Shown here piece by piece: positions 1,417-18,200 of a stretch of 53,778 nucleotides of DNA. Under the pieces are notes generated by a model. That model had not been told where the DNA came from and made no database searches. It was given only the letters and a program-made list of their open reading frames with translations. The translations under genes were made by a program, and so were the position numbers. How positions within the stretch are numbered: position 1 is the first letter of the stretch; each line of letters opens with the position of its first letter. The stretch comes from Oscillospiraceae bacterium (GTDB lineage: Bacteria; Bacillota; Clostridia; Oscillospirales; Ruminococcaceae): the NCBI GenBank assembly GCA_017545185.1, contig JAFWQJ010000066.1, positions 1-53,778 of the forward strand. The letters are read 5' to 3'.

Positions 1417-2448
1417 TTATTTCCATAAAAAGGGCGGATATGCGTCCAGATCGCCGCGCAGATACCGCGCAAGCAAAAGTGCCTGTACATATGGAAGCAT
1501 GCCCCACTGTACCTTCTCATCCAGGAACGGATGCCGGATCTCATCGTCCTTGCGCTTCTGCCATGCGGTGAGAAATGCTTTGCGGCCGTCGTCATGCAGC
1601 AGAACGGCTCCGTCTTCCCGCACATCGAACTGCTCCGGTGAAATTGTTCGCTTGTTGATAAGCGTCAGTACAAACCGGTCGCACATCAGCGCGCGGAATT
1701 CCTCGACCAGATCCAGCGCAAGAGAACGTCTGCCCGGTCTGTCTGTATGCAGAAAACCGACATACGGGTCAAGCCCGACGGCTTCCAGCGCGGATGTACA
1801 CATGCTTGTGCAGAGCGAGTACGCAAACGAAAGCAGCGCATTGACGCGGTCAAGCGGCGGACGGCGGTTTCTTCCGGTGAACCGGAACACTTCCTTCTGC
1901 TGCAGGATCATGTCGTCGAATACGGAGAAATACACGCTGGCTGCCTCACCCTCAATGCCGCGCAGACTGTCGGCATCCGGGGCGGACACAACCGTCTGGA
2001 TGCTGCTCTGCAGATAGGCGGATTTTTCTTCAAATTTTGCAAGGTCGATGCGCATTCCGTGATCCCGCATGGTGCGTTCAAGCGTCCACCTGCTGTTGTA
2101 AAGCTTTGCCGCGATCATGTTCCGCGCAATGCCGAGGCTCTGTTCCGGGCTGTCCGCGATGCGGTACTGTGTCCGCCGCAGCAGGACATTGCCGCTGACC
2201 TCGCCCTCTGCACGCGCAAGGAATCTGCCGGAGCGTGACATGAACACCAGCTCCCGCGATTCGGAGACGCATTTTCCCATGAGTGCCGGGCTTGCGCCTG
2301 CACAACCGAATGCCATGATGCGTTCCAGATTGTGCAGCGGCATTCTCGCGATCTCTTTATGATTTTCAGAAACAACAACATTTTCGCCGTCCAGCGAAAG
2401 ATATCTGTCCGGTGTTGTGATATAAAGTGTATTGAGCAGCTTTTTCAT
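1417..2448 (-). CDS. cas1: CRISPR integrase Cas1 (type I-C)
   Basis: A 343-residue Cas1. It starts MKKLLNTLYITTPDRYLS, the usual I-C Cas1 opening with an N-terminal beta domain. The C-terminal helical domain carries the metal-binding residues, with the His and acidic positions in GFLHTDRPGRRSLALDLVEE followed by FRALMCDR. It catalyses insertion of new spacers at the leader end with Cas2 and, in this subtype, Cas4. Its ATG overlaps the cas4 stop (ATGA), so the two are translationally coupled. Confidence 0.97.
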   Translation of the reverse strand: MKKLLNTLYITTPDRYLSLDGENVVVSENHKEIARMPLHNLERIMAFGCAGASPALMGKCVSESRELVFMSRSGRFLARAEGEVSGNVLLRRTQYRIADSPEQSLGIARNMIAAKLYNSRWTLERTMRDHGMRIDLAKFEEKSAYLQSSIQTVVSAPDADSLRGIEGEAASVYFSVFDDMILQQKEVFRFTGRNRRPPLDRVNALLSFAYSLCTSMCTSALEAVGLDPYVGFLHTDRPGRRSLALDLVEEFRALMCDRFVLTLINKRTISPEQFDVREDGAVLLHDDGRKAFLTAWQKRKDDEIRHPFLDEKVQWGMLPYVQALLLARYLRGDLDAYPPFLWK

Positions 2449-3110
2449 GGATCACCGCCTTTCAGTGCTTCAGCCAGATAATCCGCCGCACTGCGCTTTT
2501 TTTCCAGCACCGGCAGACAGACATCCTTCAGAGAGCAGGCATTGCAGGCTTTGGTGCGTCTGGCCTTCGGTGTATGCTGCCGCCGGAACAGCTCGTGCAT
2601 TTCCGCGATCATATCGGCTGTACGCTTTCGGAGCACCGCATCCAGTGCAACGGTCTGCCTTCTGCGGGTCTCGCCGTAGTACAGATAAGCCTGCGGGATT
2701 TCACAGCAGAGCATTTCCTCAAGGCAGAGTGCCTGCGCACAGAGCTGCACGGCATCGCAGTCATCTTCTTTCGGCTTCCCGCGCTTATACTCCACCGGGA
2801 TCACCTGATATGTGCCGTCCAGACCGTTTACGCGGATGCCGTCCGCTGCTTTGTGAAATTCCACGATATCGCATTCACCGCTGATGCCCAGCGCCGCAGA
2901 CGATACCTGCATGGCGCGCGTGATGATAACGTCCCCGCGCTTTTCGCGGAAATCGCTGTCATGCGCACGGTCATGCATCAGTCTGCCGTCGGCGGTGCGG
3001 AAATTTTCCGCCCATTGCTGTTCAATGTGGATCAGCGCCCACTGCCGGCGGCAGAACGCAAAATGCTGCAGTCCGGAGAGCATCAGGTAATCCTCTTCGC
3101 GGAGCATCAC
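2445..3110 (-). CDS. cas4: Cas4 exonuclease for PAM selection
   Basis: A 221-residue RecB-like Cas4. The N-terminus has FAFCRRQWALIHIE, with the first cluster cysteine. The nuclease core is visible as the acidic stretch around GECDIVEF and the VIPVEYKRGKPK motif (E-x-K). The C-terminus has CNACSLKDVC, which with the N-terminal Cys gives four ligands for a 4Fe-4S cluster. In I-C systems Cas4 trims prespacers and enforces the PAM. It overlaps both neighbours by 4 nt (ATGA), giving tight coupling cas7-cas4-cas1. Confidence 0.96.
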   Translation of the reverse strand: MMLREEDYLMLSGLQHFAFCRRQWALIHIEQQWAENFRTADGRLMHDRAHDSDFREKRGDVIITRAMQVSSAALGISGECDIVEFHKAADGIRVNGLDGTYQVIPVEYKRGKPKEDDCDAVQLCAQALCLEEMLCCEIPQAYLYYGETRRRQTVALDAVLRKRTADMIAEMHELFRRQHTPKARRTKACNACSLKDVCLPVLEKKRSAADYLAEALKGGDP

Positions 3111-3961
3111 ATCAGCTCAATGATCTCCGGTTTTACACCGTCGATCTTGGCAAGCGTAATCTCGTAATCGTCAAAGCTGCGCGGCGCGGAAACGCCGTCT
3201 TTCAGCGTGATGTTCAGTGCACGGTGTACCTTTGCGGAGCTGACCTTCGGCGTTTTGCAGTCATGCTCCCACCAGTACACGCGGCAGACCTCCATGCTGC
3301 CCTCGGGTCTTGCAGAGGATGCGTCGTTCTCGAACAGCGTGCAGAGTGCCTCTTTGATCTTCGCGGCGTCCTCGTCGGAGAAGCCGGTCTTTTCCGCAAG
3401 CTGGCAGTTGATGCTGCCGTGGATCACATACAGCCCGAAGGATACGCGGTGCTTCATGCCCATGGTATCAGAGGCTTTGCTCTCCTTGCCGCTCTCACCG
3501 TTGACGCTCTTGGTGATCTGCATACTGATGATATCGACCGGAGAAACGCTGACCGCCTGCTGAATGCTGACCGGGCCGCGCACACCGACGGAAACCGGGT
3601 CGCCCTTGAACGCAAACACCTGCCCGAAGCTGCGGACGTCGATCCATTCTTCACAGGCAGCCTTTGCAAAGGCGTCGCGGTCTGTGTTTTTGCCGTTCAT
3701 GATCGCTTTGAGCGCCGCATTCTGACCGGCGCGGGCGTGCAGGGAATCGCAGCCGTCATCGCAGCGGTCGTCGGACTGCACAAAGATCTTCTCGCCCATA
3801 TCCTGCAGGCGGTTTCTGATCTTGCGCTTGATGCAGACATCGGAGATCTCGCCGCAGCCGTCGAAGGCCTCGCGGGGACGGTTGCCGTTGAGCGGGTCGC
3901 CGTTGGGGTTCGCGTTCGTCGCGGTGATAATGACCGAAAAATCAATCTTATGATTCAGCAT
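3107..3961 (-). CDS. cas7: Cas7c (Csd2) Cascade backbone subunit
   Basis: A 284-residue Cas7 of the Csd2 family. The hallmark N-terminal motif TATNANPNGDPLNGNRPR is present near residue 13. The protein forms the helical backbone that wraps the crRNA spacer in six-nucleotide steps. A GGAGG sits just before the ATG, and the gene begins 3 nt after the cas8 stop. No disruption is seen. It is the fourth gene of the cas5 operon if internal cas11 is counted. Confidence 0.97.
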   Translation of the reverse strand: MLNHKIDFSVIITATNANPNGDPLNGNRPREAFDGCGEISDVCIKRKIRNRLQDMGEKIFVQSDDRCDDGCDSLHARAGQNAALKAIMNGKNTDRDAFAKAACEEWIDVRSFGQVFAFKGDPVSVGVRGPVSIQQAVSVSPVDIISMQITKSVNGESGKESKASDTMGMKHRVSFGLYVIHGSINCQLAEKTGFSDEDAAKIKEALCTLFENDASSARPEGSMEVCRVYWWEHDCKTPKVSSAKVHRALNITLKDGVSAPRSFDDYEITLAKIDGVKPEIIELM

Positions 3962-3964
3962 GGT

Positions 3965-4330
3965 TTAATCCTCCTCTTTTTTCTTATAGATCTCAGCATT
4001 GAAATGGTGATAACCGAGCAGATAGTTCGATGTCAGCGGGCTGTTGTCCGCAAACGCATTCAGATCGAATCTGGACATAACTTCATTCAGCATTTTTTCG
4101 TAGTAAATGCTCTTGGTGCCGAGCTTGATCATGTACACGCGAAGCTGTGATTCGATCTTCGCCCATGTAGTGGACGGGCGGCTCGCAAACATACTCCAGT
4201 AACGCTTGGCATTGGTGACGCGCTTGCCTCTGTCCGCTTCGTCGTAGGATGCATTTTCCGCTGCATCCGCGATCGCCAGCAGGCAGCCGAACAGATAGCT
4301 GCGGTCGGTTTCATTCGGATCAAAAGCCAT
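3965..4330 (-). CDS. cas11c: Cas11c small subunit, internal start within cas8c
   Basis: An in-frame ATG at 4330 is preceded by AAAGAAAGGAG with 8 nt spacing, one of the best ribosome binding sites in the locus although it lies inside cas8c. The product would be 121 residues (MAFDPNETDRSYLFGCLLA... ending KKKEED), helical and the size of the small subunit. In other type I-C systems the small subunit Cas11c is known to be made by internal translation of cas8c and to stabilise Cascade on the non-target strand. The Shine-Dalgarno and start are seen; the product is inferred from that precedent. Confidence 0.85.
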   Translation of the reverse strand: MAFDPNETDRSYLFGCLLAIADAAENASYDEADRGKRVTNAKRYWSMFASRPSTTWAKIESQLRVYMIKLGTKSIYYEKMLNEVMSRFDLNAFADNSPLTSNYLLGYHHFNAEIYKKKEED

Positions 4331-5809
4331 AGAGGTGACTCCTTTCTTTTGCTCAATATTTTGCTTGCGGATCATGCCGCAGGCGGTTTCCAGAACGGTG
4401 CGGTGATTGTAGCCGTGCTCATAAGCGAGCGGGTTGGATGCTTTTTTCACAAGATTCTGCACGATGTCTGCGGGAATATGCCGTCCCTGTGTGATGCAGG
4501 GAAGCAGCCGCAGCACATTGTCCTTGACGATCTCCGGCTTCGCTTCTAAAAAGCCCTTGCCGTTTTCCATGCCGTATGCGCAGTTGATGATTTCCCTGAC
4601 GGCAAAGGAATTGGGAATGCTCTTTTTCTGCTTCGTATAATACCGCAGCGCAGCCGTTTCTGCGTGCCATGTGACAAGCTGTTCCAGCAGGCGGGAGTGT
4701 TCCAGTTCTTCGTACATTGCAATCGAGAGCCGTCCGGTCGTTGCGGCATCCACGCCCATGAGCATGACCTTGCTGTCGATCGCGAAATCCTTTGTGCCGA
4801 AAATCTGCCTGCGGAGAAAATCTCTGTAGAGCGGCTCGGTGTCCGGCCTGATCTCCTGCGCGAAGTATTCTTCAACATCCGGGTCGCAGGCCTCACCCAG
4901 AATACCGGGCGGGTCTGCAAGGCTGCTTGTCCAGACAAGCAGCGTCATGGTATCAAACGGAATACCCTGCCGCTGAATCAGCCAGCGGACCGCATTGTGC
5001 ATCTTCTGGGAGAAGTCGTAGCTGACGGAAATCGCTTCCGTTTTATCGGCAAACCTTCCGCGGTAGGTAAAGCCGCTTTCATCGTTTGCAGAGATCAGCT
5101 TTGCCTTGTCTCCGGTATTCCGGATTTTGGACGGATGCTTATACGTGATCGGCTCTGTATTGCCGGTCGCATAACAAAGATCTGTCTGTTCACTTTCGCT
5201 GCCGTTCCATGCAATGAAGCTGTCATAGAGCGAGTTATCCAGCCATGTTTCCTGTATTTCTCCGCCCCACACCCGGAACCGTACAAACGCATCCGCCTGC
5301 GCAATGCCGGCAATCATGGCCTTATCGGCAAGCTGACCGGTTTCCTCATCAAGTGTCAGGACATGGCAGTCGATCAGGTCTTTCATCAGCGTTCCCTGCG
5401 AGATATATGTATAGACCGCATCAACGGCCGGGTGCGTATACGGGCTGTTGTGCCAGCGGCCGAGCTGTTCGAGATATGCCTGATAAAACAATCTGTTATC
5501 TGCCCTTTTTCCGGTAGCATATTGAGGATAATCGCCTGCAATATATAGCAGTTTATCTGCAAACGGCATTGGGAACACACCATTTGCTCTTGCACCGGAA
5601 TCCTCTGTGACAGGAATGATTGTATTTTTTCCATCGTCTTTGGTCAGCGCCTTTGCAGAAACAAAGCTCCCGTCCTGTTTCAGTGTGACCTCGATCTGAG
5701 CATTGGCGGTCGAATGCGAAACCGGGAGCAGTACATTTCCGTCATTGTGCTCGATGCCGCACTGCTGCTCATAAACCTTATAAAGCTCCTGCGTCCAGCT
5801 CAAAATCAT
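3965..5809 (-). CDS. cas8c: Cas8c (Csd1) Cascade large subunit
   Basis: A protein of about 614 residues of the Csd1 family, which recognises the PAM and recruits Cas3. Recognisable Csd1 pieces include WTQELYKVYEQQC at the N-terminus, a conserved middle stretch (FPMPFADKLLYIAGDYPQY) and LVWTSSLADPPG. I placed the start at the ATG at 5809, but GGGAGG ends only 1-2 nt upstream of it. A TTG at 5803 has ideal spacing (7 nt) to the same Shine-Dalgarno and may be the real start. Either way the gene overlaps the end of cas5 by about 30 nt. The last 121 codons are also translated separately as Cas11c. Confidence 0.95.
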   Translation of the reverse strand: MILSWTQELYKVYEQQCGIEHNDGNVLLPVSHSTANAQIEVTLKQDGSFVSAKALTKDDGKNTIIPVTEDSGARANGVFPMPFADKLLYIAGDYPQYATGKRADNRLFYQAYLEQLGRWHNSPYTHPAVDAVYTYISQGTLMKDLIDCHVLTLDEETGQLADKAMIAGIAQADAFVRFRVWGGEIQETWLDNSLYDSFIAWNGSESEQTDLCYATGNTEPITYKHPSKIRNTGDKAKLISANDESGFTYRGRFADKTEAISVSYDFSQKMHNAVRWLIQRQGIPFDTMTLLVWTSSLADPPGILGEACDPDVEEYFAQEIRPDTEPLYRDFLRRQIFGTKDFAIDSKVMLMGVDAATTGRLSIAMYEELEHSRLLEQLVTWHAETAALRYYTKQKKSIPNSFAVREIINCAYGMENGKGFLEAKPEIVKDNVLRLLPCITQGRHIPADIVQNLVKKASNPLAYEHGYNHRTVLETACGMIRKQNIEQKKGVTSMAFDPNETDRSYLFGCLLAIADAAENASYDEADRGKRVTNAKRYWSMFASRPSTTWAKIESQLRVYMIKLGTKSIYYEKMLNEVMSRFDLNAFADNSPLTSNYLLGYHHFNAEIYKKKEED

Positions 5810-6551
5810 CACCTCCCAGCAGATCAAGCCCCGGCTCAAGCAGACCGGAGAAGTTTCTGTGCGCCTGACCGAACGGCTTGATCTCCATTTCCTTGATATG
5901 CCGCTTGACGGTGCAGTCCTTCGGCGGCAGGAATTCGATCACGCCGTTTTTCATGACCGGCGTCCAGAACCGGACGGTCAGAAGCCCCTTGTCGTCCTCG
6001 TTTTCGGCTTCGTCCGCATAGGTGAAGCCGTGCAGCATCAGGCTGTAGGGAATGTCGCCGGTGTTGTCGTATGCACCTTCTCCTTCACCGAATACGCATG
6101 GTTCCGCATAGCCCTGACACTCCCGTGTCCCGAGGAAAATGTCGCGCCGGCCGCCGCGTGCGATCATGCGCCTTGCAATGTTGTGGTGCTTGTGCTCATT
6201 GCGGTCGCATTCCAGCTCCGAATGGTTCCGGTTCCACTCAAAATGCGCCCGCACCTGATAGCACACATCTTCGAGATAGGTGTAATAGGCGAGGTCGTTT
6301 CCGCCGCTGTATTTGATCGGGCGGATGCCCTTCCGCACGGTGCGGATCGGCTTCATAACGCGCACGGCATCAATATACCAGATCAGGGTCGGTTTCCAGT
6401 AGATGCTGTGCAGGACGCCTTTCAGTGCTTCGTAGGTCGGGATCATATAGGTGCAGCGTTCGCCGCCCGTGCGCGTGAGCACATCGGTGAACAGTGCATA
6501 TTTCCCGCTTACCTGAAACTCGACAGTATTGCGGTGCTTCGGGTTGTCCAT
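5778..6551 (-). CDS. cas5c: Cas5c (Cas5d) pre-crRNA endoribonuclease
   Basis: A 257-residue Cas5 of the I-C type. This subtype lacks Cas6, and Cas5c itself cuts each repeat just 3' of the stem, leaving the 11-nt handle. Visible family features are the N-terminal strand NTVEFQVSGKYALFTDVLTR, PTYEALKGVLHSIYWKP, and HKHHNIARRM, which contains the Lys-His pair expected in the catalytic region. AAGGAG precedes the ATG. It is the first gene of the operon and follows its own promoter (6588-6616). Its mRNA start is the apparent target of the regulatory RNA at 6679-6781. Confidence 0.96.
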   Translation of the reverse strand: MDNPKHRNTVEFQVSGKYALFTDVLTRTGGERCTYMIPTYEALKGVLHSIYWKPTLIWYIDAVRVMKPIRTVRKGIRPIKYSGGNDLAYYTYLEDVCYQVRAHFEWNRNHSELECDRNEHKHHNIARRMIARGGRRDIFLGTRECQGYAEPCVFGEGEGAYDNTGDIPYSLMLHGFTYADEAENEDDKGLLTVRFWTPVMKNGVIEFLPPKDCTVKRHIKEMEIKPFGQAHRNFSGLLEPGLDLLGGDDFELDAGAL

Positions 6552-6572: not shown

Positions 6573-6592
6573 TTCTAGTACGATTTAATTAT
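6573..6592 (+). promoter_or_regulatory. PAM-flanked target of the pseudo-spacer in the cas5 promoter
   Basis: TTC at 6573-6575, the usual I-C PAM, is followed directly by TAGTA-C-GATTT-A-ATTAT (6576-6592). The pseudo-spacer at 6713 reads TAGTA-T-GATTT-T-ATTAT. Fifteen of 17 positions match, and the two mismatches fall at positions 6 and 12, with the next at 18. In Cascade every sixth crRNA base is flipped out and does not pair. Downstream of 18 the match stops. The site covers the -10 box and likely start of the cas5 transcript. Confidence 0.8.
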
Positions 6593-6616
6593 AGCATCCA
6601 ATTTTTGAAATGTCAA
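6588..6616 (-). promoter_or_regulatory. Promoter of the cas5-cas8-cas7-cas4-cas1-cas2 operon
   Basis: On the minus strand TTGACA (6616-6611) and TATAAT (6593-6588) are separated by exactly 17 nt, a perfect consensus. Transcription should start near 6581, about 30 nt before the cas5 ATG. So strong a promoter for Cascade genes makes the overlapping pseudo-spacer target all the more likely to be a control point. Confidence 0.9.
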
Positions 6617-6641: not shown

Positions 6642-6672
6642 TTCACAATTCGCCGCCGGAATATGGTATAAT
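6642..6672 (+). promoter_or_regulatory. Promoter of the CRISPR-resembling RNA
   Basis: Plus-strand TATAAT at 6667-6672, preceded by TGG (extended -10). A weak TTCACA lies at 6642-6647, 19 nt upstream. The expected start, about 7 nt after the -10, falls at 6679, exactly where the pseudo-repeat GTCAC begins. Confidence 0.7.
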
Positions 6673-6678
6673 ATCTTT

Positions 6679-6781
6679 GTCACGCTGATAGATTCAGTGT
6701 GTGGATTGAAAATAGTATGATTTTATTATGTCTCATATTTTGTCTTGCCGCATGGTGTACGCGCACCATGCGGCTTTTTTT
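6679..6781 (+). ncRNA. CRISPR-resembling regulatory RNA (CreR-like), pseudo-repeat plus pseudo-spacer
   Basis: A transcript of about 103 nt. It starts GTCAC like the repeat. The hairpin CACGCTGA (6681-6688) / TCAGTGTG (6694-6701), with one G-U pair, replaces the repeat stem CACCCCC/GGGGGTG. It is followed by TGGATTGAAAA (6702-6712), which matches the 11-nt crRNA handle except for the last base. A 34-nt pseudo-spacer (6713-6746), the same length as array spacers, then runs straight into a terminator. There is no second repeat. Cas5c should cut after the stem and load the product into Cascade. The pseudo-spacer pairs with the cas5 promoter through 17 positions only, enough for binding but unlikely to license Cas3. 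Such RNAs (CreR/CreA) are known in other CRISPR types; the function here is inferred. Confidence 0.8.
6747..6781 (+). terminator. Intrinsic terminator of the CRISPR-resembling RNA
   Basis: GCCGCATGGTG (6747-6757) and CACCATGCGGC (6764-6774) form a perfect 11-bp stem with loop TACGCG, followed by seven T. It works on the plus strand. The T run overlaps the cas3 stop codon on the other strand. Confidence 0.92.
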
Positions 6782-9167
6782 ATAAGCAGAGTACTTCGTG
6801 TTCGCCGCCTTCCAGCGTGATGCCGTGATCTGCATGGTAAAAACGCTTTTCAAGCACCTGAACGGTGCAGCTCTGCAGATTCCCGCAGCACAGCGTATAG
6901 ATCGCGGATTCCTGTTCAAGCTTCTGCTTCGTTCCTTCGTAGATGCTGACGGCATATTTCTGCGCCTGCCGCAGCAGTCTGACGGTTTCTTTCGGGTTCT
7001 GCTCGCTGCCGAGCGCGGCAATGATCGCTTCCGCCTCCTCGTTGTACGGAACGATCACATTGGTCGTGCTGGAGTCAATCACCTTAAATTCACTGCCCGC
7101 CTTTTTGAAGGCCTGTCCGCAGAATGTCAGAGCCTTATTTCTTGTCATTCTGACGCGGATCTGATTCAGCGACAGCAGATTCAGAATGTCCTGATCTGCG
7201 GTTTCCTTCAGGGGATACCGCAGCAGATTTCTCGTTTTGCCGTGAACATTCCGCTTCTGCGCATTCTGATACAGCTTCCGGAAATAGTCCGACATCAGCG
7301 GCACGCTGAGAAAATCGGTATCATCCGGCATAGCAAGAAGCTGCTCAGAAATCTTCTGCGCCTCCCCGATCTCCGCAAGGCTGCCGAGCTTTTCTTCAGA
7401 CAGATGCAGAATATACACCGGGCATTCCCTGTGATATTCGCCGTTCCGGTTGCAGCGGCCTGCCGCCTGTGCCGCATTGTCCATGCCTGCCAGCGAGCGC
7501 ACCACGCAGCCGAAGGAAATATCCACGCCTGCCTCGATCAGTTGTGTTGTGACGCAGATTACAGATTCATGGGCGGAAAGCATCTGTTTCATTTCGCGGA
7601 TTCTTTCGCGCCGGTGCTGCGGGCACATATTGGTGCTCAGGTGAAAGACCGATGCGCGTTCCGTTTCCCGCAGCCGCTGATACAGCTCTTTGGCAGCGGA
7701 TTTCGTATTGACCACCAGAAGCAGACTGCCGTTTTCCGCAAACTGCTCCCGGCAGAAATCAGCGGCTTCATCATAGGAATACCCGCCCTTTTTCTGCTGA
7801 CAGATCAGCTTGGTGCGGCGGAATGCTTCAAAGTCCGCTGCGGTATCGCCTGTCATGCTGCTGTTTTCATCCAGCAGCAGCGGGAATGTATCCAGCAGAT
7901 CAAACGGCGGCTGTGTTGCCGAGCAAAGCACGACGGTGCTGCCGCAGATCTGCGAAAGGAAATTTATTGCCAGGTTGAACAGGTATACGCATTTCAGCGG
8001 TATGGACTGTACCTCGTCAATGATAATCACTGCGCGGGAGAGCCGATGCATACGCCGGACGGCACCGGTCTGACTCGAAAACAGCGCATTGAGAAACTGC
8101 ACCATGGTTGTTGCAATGACCGGCGAATCCCATTTTTCTGTCCGCAGCTCATAGTCCTGCAGGCGGTCATCCGCTTCGGAAACCTCTGCGAGCATATTGG
8201 AGTGATGCTCCAGAAATGCCGCATCGCCTGCAATTCCCCGGATGACGTCGCTGTTCTGCTCCAGGATCGACATGAACGGCGCAATATAGAAGATCTTTTC
8301 GACAGGGTGCTGCGCTGCATATTCGATCGCAAAGCGCAGCGAGGAAAGCGTTTTGCCGCCGCCTGTCGGAACAATCAGCTTGCAGATATGCACATCATGT
8401 GCGGCAAAGGCAGCACAGCGGTCGGAAATGCTTTTGCGCTGCAGAGAGATCGGGTCTGTTTTGTCCGCGAAGGAATCCAGTTTCTGCTGCATCCGTTCCT
8501 GCATTTCCTGCCAGAGCTGCAATGTATCAAATTCCGCTTCTGTCGCTGTGCCGGCCATAAAATCAGCGGTGTCTGTCCGGTCGGCATCGATCAGGACAGA
8601 CTGCAGCAGGCGTTCCAGCATCCCGAGATAAAACGCAAATGTTTCGGCATCGGGAGAGAGCGCTTTCAGCCTTGCGCGGATCTCCGTGAGTTCGGCAGAA
8701 GCATCCGGAAGTGCAGCCTGCACATCCGGCAGCCATTCCGCATTCCGCAGATTCTGCATGATTTCCGCATAATATGTTTCTTTTTCGGTGCGTTTCCGGA
8801 ACACATCCTCGGCATCGTCATTGACCCAGTCATGCAGGCCGTGATGCGACAGGATCACCCGTCCGAGCAGTCCGGCTGTTTTCTGCATATTGATATCCTC
8901 GCTCTGTGCTGCGATCGCCTGAAGATATTTCGCACCTGCAAAGCTGTGATCGAGTTCCCCTCGGCGGAAATCTGCTGTCTGATGAATATAGGCATCGAAG
9001 TCAGCAGTCAGCTTTCCGATGTCGTGCAGAAGTGCAGAAAGCTTTGCAGTTTGGGCGAGTCCTGCTTGTTCTGCGTATTTTGCTGCGAGTTCAGCAGTTT
9101 CGAGGCAATGATCTTTTACAGTCTGTTCCCGTTTGTCAAGGGGACGGATATGTGCTGTATACTGCAT
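6780..9167 (-). CDS. cas3: Cas3 HD nuclease-helicase (type I-C)
   Basis: A 795-residue fused Cas3. The HD nuclease is N-terminal (His20, then LLHDIGK with His48-Asp49). The SF2 helicase follows: PTGGGKT near residue 265, IIIDEVQ near 383 (DExx box), SATQP, TQLIEAGVDISF and QAAGRCNRNGE (motif VI). It unwinds and degrades the DNA bound by Cascade. AAAGGAG stands 7 nt before the ATG. The gene has its own promoter and is separated from cas5 by 228 nt holding the regulatory RNA, so effector and nuclease can be controlled separately. Confidence 0.98.
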   Translation of the reverse strand: MQYTAHIRPLDKREQTVKDHCLETAELAAKYAEQAGLAQTAKLSALLHDIGKLTADFDAYIHQTADFRRGELDHSFAGAKYLQAIAAQSEDINMQKTAGLLGRVILSHHGLHDWVNDDAEDVFRKRTEKETYYAEIMQNLRNAEWLPDVQAALPDASAELTEIRARLKALSPDAETFAFYLGMLERLLQSVLIDADRTDTADFMAGTATEAEFDTLQLWQEMQERMQQKLDSFADKTDPISLQRKSISDRCAAFAAHDVHICKLIVPTGGGKTLSSLRFAIEYAAQHPVEKIFYIAPFMSILEQNSDVIRGIAGDAAFLEHHSNMLAEVSEADDRLQDYELRTEKWDSPVIATTMVQFLNALFSSQTGAVRRMHRLSRAVIIIDEVQSIPLKCVYLFNLAINFLSQICGSTVVLCSATQPPFDLLDTFPLLLDENSSMTGDTAADFEAFRRTKLICQQKKGGYSYDEAADFCREQFAENGSLLLVVNTKSAAKELYQRLRETERASVFHLSTNMCPQHRRERIREMKQMLSAHESVICVTTQLIEAGVDISFGCVVRSLAGMDNAAQAAGRCNRNGEYHRECPVYILHLSEEKLGSLAEIGEAQKISEQLLAMPDDTDFLSVPLMSDYFRKLYQNAQKRNVHGKTRNLLRYPLKETADQDILNLLSLNQIRVRMTRNKALTFCGQAFKKAGSEFKVIDSSTTNVIVPYNEEAEAIIAALGSEQNPKETVRLLRQAQKYAVSIYEGTKQKLEQESAIYTLCCGNLQSCTVQVLEKRFYHADHGITLEGGEHEVLCL

Positions 9168-9554: not shown

Positions 9555-10073
9555 TCAACAATCGTTTGAAGTTTCCGCCACTGAATACCCGTTAGATGTT
9601 TTGAGTTCAAATTCAAACCGAACCTTTTGATTAGTAAGCTTTGAAATATACTTGCTGTATGCGTTCATTTCACCAATATCTCCATGGAACATCTTTCCGT
9701 TCACATAGCTGACGGAGTTTATGATAAGATGGACATGGAAACGTGATACGCCACGTTTTTTTTCGTGAACAGCCCAGATCACTTGATACTTATTTTTGAA
9801 ATAGCGTGCGAATTTATCTGCATATTCGCACGCTTTTTCTGCTGCTTGGGCACATTGATCCAGTGAAATCATGATATGAATCAGAGGATTGCTGCTCACC
9901 TTTCCGTAGCACACCTTTATGAACACCATTTGTGAGTTGGCAAGATTCGTATCAAACGGATTTACCCCATATCCGCCAATTCCACGCAGTTCCCCCTTAA
10001 AAACATATTGATGCAGCTGCTTTAAGTATGCCAAATTCCCATAAGTGTTTCGTATCAATTTGACATAAACCAT
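9555..10073 (-). CDS. Compact MobA/VirD2-like relaxase
   Basis: A 172-residue relaxase core. NPLIHIMISL is the first strand motif and RFHVHLIINSV near residue 115 is the HxH metal motif of the relaxase fold; the protein ends soon after (ETSNDC). An N-terminal Tyr (VYVKLIRNTYGN) could be the nicking residue. Family members are usually over 350 residues, so this is either a minimal relaxase or one missing its C-terminus. It overlaps the MobC-like gene by 19 nt. It would nick an oriT so that the island can be mobilised by a helper. Confidence 0.75.
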   Translation of the reverse strand: MVYVKLIRNTYGNLAYLKQLHQYVFKGELRGIGGYGVNPFDTNLANSQMVFIKVCYGKVSSNPLIHIMISLDQCAQAAEKACEYADKFARYFKNKYQVIWAVHEKKRGVSRFHVHLIINSVSYVNGKMFHGDIGEMNAYSKYISKLTNQKVRFEFELKTSNGYSVAETSNDC

Positions 10074-10336
10074 ATCTCTGCCTCCTCTTCCTGTATTTCT
10101 TTCAATAATTCGGGCTGATGCTTGCGTGCAAGCTCCCTGGCTAGGTTCAATATATTTTGCGTATGCACCGCGATAACCGGATCAAATCCGGAATTTGCAT
10201 TCATTGCTGAGAACACCATGAACGATCCCATCGACATGTGATGCATATCCGCTTTTCTCTGAATCTCTTCACGCTGTCTCTCTGATAATCTGACTGATGT
10301 CACAATGCAACGCATTTCATCTTGACTTTTCATCAT
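10055..10336 (-). CDS. MobC-like mobilization accessory protein
   Basis: A 93-residue protein with a ribbon-helix-helix-like N-terminus (TSVRLSERQREEIQRKADM) typical of MobC relaxosome factors. Two adjacent ATGs (10336, 10333) follow GAGGAGG at 4 and 7 nt; the ORF can be extended upstream but only past this Shine-Dalgarno. It directly precedes and overlaps the relaxase, the standard mobC-mobA order. Confidence 0.75.
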   Translation of the reverse strand: MMKSQDEMRCIVTSVRLSERQREEIQRKADMHHMSMGSFMVFSAMNANSGFDPVIAVHTQNILNLARELARKHQPELLKEIQEEEAEIWFMSN

Positions 10337-10385
10337 ACTTACCTCCTCTTTTTCGCCTATGCTACCATTGTTTATATAATAGCAG

Positions 10386-10421
10386 GCGCTCACTTCGTTC
10401 GCTCATTAACACATAGTGTTA
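10386..10421. other. Candidate oriT region
   Basis: This lies upstream of the mob genes, where oriT is usually found. It has the perfect inverted repeat TAACAC-ATA-GTGTTA (10407-10421) next to GCGCTCACTTCGTTCGC (10386-10402). The location fits; the nic site cannot be identified by eye. The remaining sequence to 10620 is AT-rich and shows no gene. Confidence 0.25.
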
Positions 10422-13276: not shown

Positions 13277-13339
13277 CTTTTCGTGACACCCGAAAAGCAG
13301 CAAAAACAGCGTGCCAAAAGGTCCGGTTTTGACTTTTGG
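13277..13339. other. Candidate recombination (res) site of the small serine recombinase
   Basis: Two 7-bp inverted repeats with related arms lie just upstream of the recombinase: CTTTTCG/CGAAAAG (13277-13283, 13291-13297, spacer 7) and CCAAAAG/CTTTTGG (13314-13320, 13333-13339, spacer 12). Small serine recombinases commonly bind such paired half-sites next to their own gene. Assignment by position and symmetry only. Confidence 0.35.
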
Positions 13340-13386
13340 GGCGTCTCGAAAGTCACACCCACATTTTGAAACGGAAAGGATCATAT

Positions 13387-13989
13387 ATGGAACAAAGAAC
13401 ATACGGATATGCCCGCGTGTCTACACGTGAGCAAAATGAAGACCGGCAGATTGAGGCGCTGACTCGGTTCGGTGTACCGGAAGCAAATATCATCATTGAC
13501 AAAGCATCGGGCAAGGATACCGAGCGTGAGGGATATCAGTATCTCAAGCGGCAGATACTTCGCCGAGGCGATACGCTCGTCATCAAGGAGCTGGATCTCC
13601 TGAGCCGCAGTAAGGGAGATGTCAAGCGGGAACTTGAATCCTTTAAGGAGATGGGCGTTCGCGTGAAGATTCTTGACATTCCGACGACGCTCACAGACTT
13701 CCCACCGGAGCAGCTGTGGGTGCAAGACATGATCAATAGCATCCTCATCGAGGTGCTCGGCAGCATCGCTGAAGTTGAACGGCTCAAAATTCGCACCCGA
13801 CAACGTGAGGGCATTGAGGCTGCCAAAAAGAAGAATGTGCGGTTCGGTCGTCCGCCAGCACCTTTACCCGATAACTGGCGCGAGGTCATGGCGGCAGTCA
13901 AGCGCGGCGAGTTGCGCCCGGTCGATGCGATGCAGGTTCTGAGATTGTCAAGGTCGAGTTTCTACCGGCTATACCGTAATATATTATAA
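13387..13989 (+). CDS. Small serine recombinase (resolvase/invertase family)
   Basis: A 200-residue resolvase. The N-terminal catalytic domain has YGYARVSTREQNEDRQIEAL with the nucleophilic Ser, followed by ELDLLSRSKGD. The canonical motif is DRLSRS; here the Arg before Leu is replaced by Leu, which occurs in some relatives. The C-terminus is a helix-turn-helix (VDAMQVLRLSRSSFYRLYRN). I start at ATG 13387, preceded by AAAGGA; the longer ORF upstream covers the candidate res site. It could resolve cointegrates or invert a segment of the island. Confidence 0.9.
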   Translation: MEQRTYGYARVSTREQNEDRQIEALTRFGVPEANIIIDKASGKDTEREGYQYLKRQILRRGDTLVIKELDLLSRSKGDVKRELESFKEMGVRVKILDIPTTLTDFPPEQLWVQDMINSILIEVLGSIAEVERLKIRTRQREGIEAAKKKNVRFGRPPAPLPDNWREVMAAVKRGELRPVDAMQVLRLSRSSFYRLYRNIL

Positions 13990-15298: not shown

Positions 15299-18200
15299 GT
15301 GGCAGATTATCTGCTCACTTCCCCATATCTCCCTTATAGTTGCAGCTACGGGTTTGGCCCGCCGTACACTATTTTCGACCGGCTTCCGTACGGTGGATAC
15401 TGGATTCAACCGCGACAAGTTATCTACAATGTGTTTGAACAGAGAAAGCCTAGCTACGAATGCAAAAAGCTGTCGAAGCGCTGCGGGCGATACTACATGA
15501 CAGAGAGAAACGGCCGCGAGGTTGTTATCGGCGAAATGAATATCAGCAATGCGCTGGTTGTCAATCCCCGCGCTGACGGCTCATTTGATTGCATCTACTG
15601 CGATATTAAGGGCGAAGGTATGCCCGAAAAGCGCGCCTGTCAGTTCCCGATTGATGCAATCCGAAAGCATAACCCACTGCCCTATATTCTTGATTACCAT
15701 CGGAATCCAGACTGCCCGCCGGAGTATATTATTGCCGCTTTTTTCGAGGAGTTGTTCAACAACAACGACCTTAAGTTCCTCAGTCTGCCGCCACACTCAG
15801 GCGGGAATCTGCTAGAAGGTCGCTGGGGGTTTGTGTCGGCGGAGTCCGTGATTCCGCAGCTTGAAGAGTACTACGAGTCCGACATTCCTCTGCGGCATCT
15901 GCTGCAGACCGACAAATCACTTTGCGATGCATCTGAAGAGCTTGCCATGCTTTTGCCCGACAATAATGCATGTCGTGTTCTGCTTAACGCGAATGTGTCA
16001 AGCATCCTGCTGGGGCTTTATGAGGAACAGCAGTTCAAAACGGATCGAATGTTTGTCGTGTGTGTCGAGTGCGAACGGGACGCTAAGCTTGCTACTGTTC
16101 TGCTGCAAAACCGCAGTTTTACGGATACATACGCGTGCTCGCTTCTTGAAAGCAAGTCAGTGCTTCAAGGCGAACTGGATTCAATCTGGGACGGCACAGT
16201 CATTTTTCGCGATTCATCGTACGTGGAAGACAAAAAAAGACGCGATGCCGGAGTTAATATTATTTTGCAGAATCTGCATCGTAGCCAGGGAATCAATGAA
16301 GCGAACCGGAAGATCATCGCCAGTATCACCGACAATCCATCCGCATACTCCTCTGAACTGCCTGCAGTTTACGTAGAAATGACAGGATGTCCCGAGGTTG
16401 AGAGACTCGACAAGCTGCAACAGGCAATCGGAACTTTTCTCGCTGCCCTGATTCGGACACTTGCAAATTCCGATGCGACTGAAAACCTCGTGACTGCTGC
16501 AATCAAGCATACCCCGCTTCCTCAGAAAACGGTCGAGAACGGCGGTGAGATTGGCACCGAAGCCATCATGCGATGCACTGCTACGCTGCTTTCGGAGATG
16601 GGAGTGTTTGACCGCACGCATATTTCGCAGCTTGATGAACTGTTCCGCCGCGGTGCTGACGCAGTATGCGATCAAGACCTGGCAATCGTCAACGATTTTC
16701 GGACAGTGCTATCCGAGATGATCGAAAAGGATGAGCTTCGGATTGCAAATCAGTTTTCCTCGCCATACTATTCGGCACCTGATGCAATGATCATGCTCGA
16801 CTGTGATTGTGTTAACTTTTCGGCCGAGGTGCTCAACAGTATCGTGACTAGGATGAAATCGACCCAACGGCGAAATGTCGTGCTGCTTGCGCTGAAAGGT
16901 TGCGGCAAGATTCATGCCAACAACGCTTACAAGCGCCTCCTGGATGTAGAGGTTGAACAAGGTAGGGTTGAGACTCTTAACTTCTACAGTGTGCCGCGAA
17001 CGATGCTGACACCATCTTGCCAGGCAAAACTAAACGAGATCCGGTACAAGGAATATCTCTTCCTACAGAGCGATTATCCTGAATGCTTTGTGCCCATTAT
17101 ACAGGGAAAAAACGGGTTCGTTGCCGGGCGAGTGATTAATGATGAAACGGATGAAGCAGAGTCGATTTATGCAAGTGGGAAAACGCGATCAGGAAAGACA
17201 AATTTCGAAGTGAATCATGCTGTTACCCGCGCCAATTGCGGTGATCTCATCATCATCTTTGACCAGACGGGTGCGTTCTCACAGGATGAACTGCGAAAGC
17301 ATCTCCCCGAGGAAATCATTGATAATTTCTTTTCTCAGTGGGAAATCGGCGAGCAAGGACTCCCGGTCAACATGTTGTCTCTGGAAAACTGCAAATCGCT
17401 GCCAGACAAGAAGCAGCGTCTTGCGAATGTCCTTTCGGTTCTTGCGCGACTGACAGGAGAAGTTCAGCTGAAGGTTCTCCGTAGCCGTCTTGCCAAGGTC
17501 GTCCATGCAGTCGAAGCTGGTCAAGTCCGCAGCCTTGCTGGTACACTGCGTTTCTTCAACGCGGACGAACCAGATCAGGCTGAAATCCTGGAACGGCTGG
17601 AGGAGGCTGTTGAGGACCTTGAAGGCCTTCCGATCAGTCAGATGAATTGGAATGAGTTTCTTTCTTCTCAAGGAAAAATCATCATCATTTCCACCGCGTC
17701 GGATGGAATAAGAAAGAGCTCACAGTACATCGACGCACTGCTTGCCTCACTTTACGCTTGGAAGCAGCACAATCGCACAGAAAGGATGACAGTTGTACTC
17801 GACGAGATTGAGGAACTCAGTCTTGAACGGGATGGTCCGGTGAATACAATTCTTCGCAAGGGCAGCAAGCATCGTATGTCGATGCTGCTTGCTTCGCAAG
17901 AATTTTCTGCTGAAAAGGACAAACTCGGCAGACTCATCGGGAATTGCGGGATGCAGCTTATATTTCATCCGAAGGACGCTTGTATCGACGAAATCGCAAA
18001 AAGGTTTGGCATTGACCGACAGCAACTCGCAGGTTTGGAGCAGGGCGAATGCTTTGCTGTTGGCGGTTTCTTCAGCAAACGGCACGGCAAAAACAAGCAG
18101 GTAACGATTCGCGGAAAGACCTATTCTGTGGCAGCACTTTTTGCTCCGGTCGAGCAGCCGATTGAAACACAGGATGTTTCAGATGAGTCTTCAGAGCTTT

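Follow-up and report, generated by a model that had tools for sequence, protein, structure and literature searches.

The window, the whole 53,778-nucleotide stretch of DNA that we analysed (contig JAFWQJ010000066.1 of an Oscillospiraceae bacterium), opens with a CRISPR array followed by a run of cas genes (Table 1). The sequence-only reading from which we started had placed a plus-strand transcription unit among these genes, opposite to them in direction; all seven flanking genes do lie on the minus strand, and profile matches identified them as a complete type I-C set. The 13 spacers between full array repeats measure 33–36 nt. Between cas3 and cas5 is a gap of 228 nt, which is occupied by the element described here together with the cas5 promoter; cas3, read by eye, seems to be served by a separate promoter. 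Beside the locus (window 9555–10393 and 13336–13989) are a relaxase, a resolvase and a mobilization protein resembling NikA, and the locus may therefore travel on a mobilizable element.

Table 1. Coordinates of the type I-C locus, the candidate guide-RNA element and its target site in the window
Feature	Position	Strand	Basis or remark
CRISPR array, repeat GTCACCCCCTTCACAGGGGGTGTGGATTGAAAT	1–961	−	14 full copies and one cut at the contig end
cas2	1123–1413	−	TIGR01573
cas1c	1417–2448	−	TIGR03640
cas4	2445–3110	−	TIGR00372
cas7	3107–3961	−	TIGR02589
cas8c	3965–5839	−	TIGR01863
cas5c, first gene of the targeted operon	5778–6551	−	TIGR01876
PAM TTC of the target	6573–6575	+	guide-target comparison, assembly search
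Protospacer in the cas5 promoter; matched part 6576–6592, 34-nt footprint to 6609	6576–6609	+	guide-target comparison
cas5 promoter TTGACA-17-TATAAT, 12/12 consensus, TG before the −10	6588–6616	−	sigma-70 scan
Extended −10 (TGgTATAAT) of the putative guide-RNA gene	6664–6672	+	sequence; predicted start near 6679
Pseudo-repeat: GTC, 8-bp hairpin 6681–6701, handle TGGATTGAAAA 6702–6712	6679–6712	+	sequence, array comparison, fold
Pseudo-spacer, 34 nt; nt 1–17 (6713–6729) pair with the target	6713–6746	+	guide-target comparison
Intrinsic terminator, in place of a second repeat	6747–6781	+	terminator scan: 12 pairs, run of 7 T
cas3	6780–9167	−	TIGR01587 and TIGR01596; upstream of the gap

Our analysis confirmed the element that had been noticed at 6679–6781. 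The extended −10 reported for this unit is present in the window sequence, with TATAAT at 6667–6672 and TG at 6664–6665. By our own count its −35, TTCACA, lies 19 nt off; this −35 is poor, for which reason a sigma-70 scan of the window did not call the promoter, and the case for a promoter here is made by the extended −10 and by the relatives described below. The repeat-like 5′ end likewise proved to be real, consisting of a hairpin whose arms CACGCTGA (6681–6688) and TCAGTGTG (6694–6701) pair, followed by the handle. In an ungapped comparison with the repeat of its own array, the handle is identical at 10 of 11 positions and the remaining pseudo-repeat at 7 of 22; the stem has been rewritten relative to the array, and the type I-C handle has been kept. 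Across the 3.6-Mb assembly, GTGTGGATTGAAA has 15 exact copies, 14 in the array and one in the element. The pseudo-spacer had been described as 34 nt and of array-spacer length, as we also found, and the terminator stood as well, with the earlier count of 11 pairs giving way to 12 in the scan (hairpin span 6747–6774, then the T-run). Both hairpins form in the predicted RNA fold (z −5.5), and none of 200 shuffles was equally stable. At gathering score, 4227 Rfam models gave no match in the window. A block of 21–23 nt around the element's −10 (window 6652–6677) has exact copies at two other places in the assembly (C40 and C79), the C40 copy lying directly behind a perfect TTGACA; a tRNA scan of both of these loci found none.

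The sequence-only reading had supposed that the guide is aimed at a cas promoter and left the target unnamed. We found this target in the cas5 promoter: nt 1–17 of the guide (TAGTATGATTTTATTAT) differ from TAGTACGATTTAATTAT at 6576–6592 only at positions 6 and 12, which gives 15/15 at the pairing positions behind a TTC, and the site covers the −10 of this minus-strand promoter. In type I Cascade every sixth base is flipped out, and in type I-C positions 6 and 12 take no part in pairing. The match is specific, in that TTCTAGTANGATTTNATTAT at no more than two mismatches has a single site in the 3.6-Mb assembly, the one in the cas5 promoter, and the reversed control of this pattern has none; at the same tolerance, cas3 offers no site to the window guide. 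When 200,000 shuffles of the 17-nt guide were compared with the gap's 11 TTC sites, six reached 14/15 and none 15. TTC is a type I-C PAM in Xanthomonas (PMC8406640) and, together with TTT, in Neisseria lactamica (PMC10865793), and positions 6 and 12 also lie outside the pairing of CreA (PMC8501985).

To compare the locus with relatives, we assembled a first survey of 196 records holding 164 distinct cas5c loci, drawn from the family (Cas5c relatives in 46 of 297 genomes), a genome collection at species level (the 80 best among 264 confirmed stretches), the class (65 of 393 genomes, with 14 places that had shorter profile matches left out) and plasmids (six loci taken from 14 matching records). 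Solo handles were defined as TGGATTGAAA with at most one mismatch, ending in GAAA, anywhere in a record. The 17 nt after each handle were matched against every 17-mer of either strand up to 1.5 kb away and scored at 15 positions (all but 6 and 12), with no PAM required. Among 208 solo handles, 44 had a partner at 13/15 or better, and 37 of these partners stand behind TTC. Taken from the same handles, shifted (offset 40), shuffled and reversed guides had 14, 6 and 11 partners, of which 0, 0 and 1 stand behind TTC. Two more loci, L197 (15/15, PAM TTT) and L104 (12/15, TTC), were added by hand because they are located at the right place, bringing the count to 39 elements in 38 of the 164 distinct loci; 126 have no such element. 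The seven non-TTC partners at 13/15 or better are that of L197, two in L070 and one each in L047, L093, L099 and L138; leaving aside L197 and the first L070 partner, these resemble chance matches or local repeats. L070 carries its element upstream of cas3 (2100–2420; 14/15 behind TTT), with the target block present twice in tandem, and L099 has short tandem GTGTGGATTGAA copies upstream of cas3 near 3376. Neither L070 nor a displaced case, L018, is included among the 39.

For a second survey, the criteria were fixed beforehand and applied to 80 loci, mostly chosen by score, from other classes of the phylum (102 genomes with Cas5c). Here 63 handles gave eight partners at 13/15 or better, six of them behind TTC and counted as elements, as compared with 11, 1 and 1 partners for shifted, shuffled and reversed controls, none behind TTC. 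The six targets lie 14–606 nt upstream of cas3 or cas5; identity is 0% at position 6, 17% at position 12 and 33% at position 17, and none of the guides reaches 15/15. The other 74 of the 80 loci have no such element. The design thus occurs outside the class as well, though less often or in a shorter form.

The pattern of pairing in the window recurs across the 37 TTC cases of the first survey. Identity is 100% at positions 1–5, 97–100% at 7–11, 95–100% at 13–16 and 78% at 17, values that the threshold of 13/15 partly selects for at the 15 scored positions, leaving only positions 6, 12 and 18 onward free. At these unselected positions identity falls to 27% (position 6), 30% (position 12) and 27% (position 18), ranging from 16 to 41% across 18–36. 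Selection did not use these positions, so neither the dip at 6 and 12 nor the stop past 17 is a product of the search.

All targets of the 45 elements from both surveys (39 + 6) lie upstream of cas3 or cas5, those of the first survey 12–384 nt from the start of the gene. For 26 of 39 elements, the 34-nt footprint with its PAM shares sequence with the best sigma-70 match, where random placement would give 7.1; for the other 13 it misses the best-scoring promoter. In 145 loci the view extends 350 nt or more upstream of cas3, and 37 of these have an element; this figure is a minimum, the search having used a fixed handle. Among 99 loci with cas3 directly upstream, the cas3–cas5 gap reaches at least 199 nt in 13, and 11 of these hold the element in the gap. 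L018, another of the 13, has between cas3 and cas5 a promoter-like guide displaced by 2 bases from its handle, as if damaged or shifted, and in L049 (684-nt gap) no element was found. The remaining loci of the 99 have gaps of at most 132 nt, and the elements found there sit upstream of cas3.

Related loci differ in whether they have the cassette. L005, L006, L007, L008, L035, L037 and L040 (Cas5 83–90%) have cas3–cas5 gaps of 17–30 nt with no element in them. In L034, L035, L037 and L038 (Cas5 85–90%; L034 and L038 being L005 and L006 in longer form), gaps of 19–30 nt leave no room for promoter and element, and the records contain no counted element. The cassette appears to be gained or lost as a whole. 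In none of the six plasmid-borne I-C loci taken from the 14 records (Paenibacillus, Monoglobus, Lysinibacillus, L. paracasei, Zymomonas and N. vulgaris) was the element found; the Lysinibacillus plasmid (L205) carries at 16393 a solo exact I-C handle with no target at 12/15 or better within 1.5 kb. Viral contigs searched with Cas5 gave two pattern matches, none of which was confirmed.

Taken together, these observations support, at the level of sequence, the earlier reading of a guide aimed at a cas promoter, and we consider it very probable that the element is a CreR-like guide-RNA gene that acts as an autorepressor of type I-C Cascade. We infer a transcript, its processing and loading, repression and feedback as follows. 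Transcription would run from near 6679, at the pseudo-repeat, to the terminator. Cas5c would cut below the hairpin, leaving an RNA that begins with the 11-nt handle TGGATTGAAAA, continues into the guide and has the terminator hairpin at its 3′ end, and this RNA would be loaded into Cascade (Cas5c–Cas8c–Cas7). Cascade would then be directed to TTC-TAGTACGATTTAATTAT, over the −10 of the cas5-cas8-cas7-cas4-cas1-cas2 operon. Because positions 6 and 12 are unpaired, the duplex would consist of 15 pairs in three blocks, after which pairing stops. Incomplete pairing does not license Cas3, and Cascade might block the promoter without the full R-loop that Cas3 needs. The outcome would be negative feedback on the cas5 operon that eases when crRNAs or an anti-CRISPR occupy Cascade. 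Two published results bear on these steps: Cas5 is the crRNA-processing enzyme of type I-C (PMC10651486), and in Neisseria a designed spacer that placed I-C Cascade over a −10 behind TTC repressed transcription (PMC10865793).

The same anatomy would serve an element that guides Cascade to the cas5 promoter mainly to sense free Cascade or to prime cas induction, rather than for steady autorepression, with derepression when anti-CRISPRs or many crRNAs take Cascade up. In reviews, CreR is said to respond to crRNA abundance and to anti-CRISPRs (PMC12737573; PMC12948488). By sequence, such a role is inseparable from plain autorepression, of which it is a refinement and not a different mechanism; as the main role we consider it improbable.

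Considerably less probable still is a decayed mini-array, that is, a leftover repeat and a dead spacer. The repeat is indeed single and has diverged from the array outside the handle, and L018 looks displaced, so decay may happen. In the 26 loci with an array in view, the element's handle is identical to that of the array at 10–11 of 11 positions and the rest at 3–15 of 22 (ungapped), and L182 shares an unusual TGGATAGAAAT with its own array. The stem, however, keeps its pairing while its sequence varies. Under a fixed rule (GTC upstream, five pairs), by which 33 of 39 elements qualify and six were dropped, 153 of 165 stem pairs are formed, whereas permuted arms form 96.3 on average and 114 at most in 2000 runs; for the inner pairs the figures are 88 of 99 and 42.3. 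Stem sequences vary widely, and pairing has therefore been kept through change. Decay would also not account for flanking signals that keep their places. Of the 45 elements, 36 have a GTC at this place, and in 24 of these a TATAAT with at most one mismatch ends 6–7 nt before it; among all 11212 GTC of these records, those of the elements counted in, 205 are so preceded. Looked for from guide nt 18 onward, a terminator-like hairpin is present behind 41 of the 45 elements, as compared with 74 of 900 shuffles. When the scan began at guide nt 1, the hairpin started after nt 18–51 in 35 of the 41 cases and inside nt 10–17 in six (L150, L151, L153, L163, L165 and the second element of L181).

A dead spacer would not be expected to change together with its target, as these guides do. 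We compared loci pairwise where Cas5 identity was 75% or more and the guides could be aligned; over the 15 such pairs listed, 40 positions differ together in guide and target and 4 differ apart (our own sum, over pairs that are not independent and under a threshold that favours matches). L082 and L097, whose Cas5 proteins are 89% identical, show five compensated differences and no uncompensated one, and L108 and L111 show three and one. Between the window and L036 the 17-nt guide is unchanged, and their targets are alike except at positions 6 and 12. Overall, the 45 elements carry 43 distinct guides and fall into 27 Cas5 clusters at 75% identity. The handle, pseudo-spacer and target that the sequence-only reading had expected to be conserved in relatives thus recur, along with hairpin and PAM, and guide and target co-change; the comparison shows signs of selection on both the guide and its promoter target.

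Two further readings are scarcely credible. One would make the element only a terminator, or an antisense RNA, for cas3 read-through, with the likeness to a repeat arising by chance. The element does lie just behind cas3 and on the opposite strand, but the sole terminator called is on the plus strand, so that by this criterion cas3 transcripts are not ended by it; moreover, the handle is unique outside the array in the 3.6-Mb assembly, and the same design is found upstream of cas3 in other loci. The other, equally implausible, takes the identity of guide and target for a local duplication without function, as their same orientation and spacing of 137 nt in the window could suggest, but the arrangement of mismatches at 6 and 12, with TTC next to one copy and the handle next to the other, is found again where the sequences are different, and the copies are inverted in nine loci (L083, L101, L104, L106, L108, L111, L150, L151 and L153).

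As a candidate autorepressor, the element can be compared with known crRNA-like regulators. Liu et al. reportedly described CreR, in 2023, as cas-regulating RNAs of types I-B, I-E and V-A. Like CreR, the element would yield a crRNA-like RNA of a CRISPR-Cas system with a guide of limited complementarity to a cas promoter: a single pseudo-repeat keeps the processing hairpin (8-bp stem) and the array handle (10/11), the partial complementarity to the cas5 promoter (15/15) lies beside a TTC PAM, and the gene lies within its own cas locus. It differs from CreR in belonging to type I-C, where Cas5c is expected in place of Cas6. Shmakov et al. are said to have predicted in 2023, across type I and V-A, crRNA-like regulatory elements and standalone repeats partly complementary to cas promoters, and the element resembles these in both its standalone repeat and its partial complementarity.

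The sequence-only reading had spoken of a CreR- or CreA-like RNA, directed to cas or toxin promoters. The cas-promoter half held, given the site in the cas5 promoter, and the toxin half fell; we rejected a CreA of the CreTA or CrePA kind, as the 228-nt gap is filled and has no space for a toxin, and the target is the cas5 promoter. With the CreA of CreTA, found in type I-B of haloarchaea, the element shares a pseudo-repeat, a TTC PAM and the skipping of position 6, and with creA of H. hispanica the combination of one pseudo-repeat and a terminator (PMC8501985). CreA, however, pairs at 1–5 and 7–11 and represses a toxin gene (PMC8501985), whereas here pairing continues through 13–17, making three segments over 17 nt, and the target is a cas promoter. 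In H. hispanica, a CreA with one repeat is less abundant than one with two (PMC8501985).

Other comparisons were less close. The Racr RNA anti-CRISPRs, including RacrIC1, also have a solitary I-C-like repeat unit, but viruses and plasmids are their carriers, and they inhibit Cas proteins and have no DNA target (PMC10651486); we rejected this assignment for an element that lies within a cas locus and has a promoter target. A canonical CRISPR array was rejected too, since two near-identical repeats are absent: in all 39 elements of the first survey, no second TGGATTGAAA with fewer than three mismatches occurs 20–94 nt past the guide start. The tracr-L of type II-A resembles the element in its short guide match at a cas promoter and in repression without cleavage, and differs in using Cas9 and a long tracrRNA (PMC8616872). 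A literature search, based on partial texts and with the two main catalogues of such RNAs outside its reach, returned no description of a CreR of type I-C, and we provisionally regard a type I-C element of this design as new within I-C.

If the element works as proposed, self-regulation by a crRNA-like guide extends to type I-C, and a tiny gene within a CRISPR locus appears to let the immune system turn itself down. The 45 natural guides would then display the pairing that selection keeps for promoter binding, namely three blocks that leave 6 and 12 free and go no further than 17, and this 17-nt pattern would give I-C a boundary, open to testing, between binding by Cascade and attack by Cas3. 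A broader reading, which we put forward tentatively and as one joint proposal whose chances we place a little short of even, is that type I-C has its own class of autoregulatory guides, with one pseudo-repeat and a functional part formed by the first 17 nt in three five-base blocks. Cas5c would stay on the 5′ handle and no Cas6 would be present at the 3′ end, so a terminator could replace the second repeat. Seventeen nucleotides may be a natural length of pairing for I-C Cascade, enough to bind a promoter and too little to license Cas3, and guide and promoter may come and go as a unit. The same principle might apply to the Myxococcus dev I-C operon and its autoregulation. There, DevTRS (Cas8c–Cas7–Cas5) repress their own operon by a mechanism noted as unexplained (PMC8616872), and the present design supplies a testable candidate. 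Under the same joint proposal, guides would sit at whichever promoter drives the operon, be it that of cas5, that of cas3 or, as in L181, both. L181 has its two elements at 6017 and 8404, and each of these two promoters is the target of one of them.
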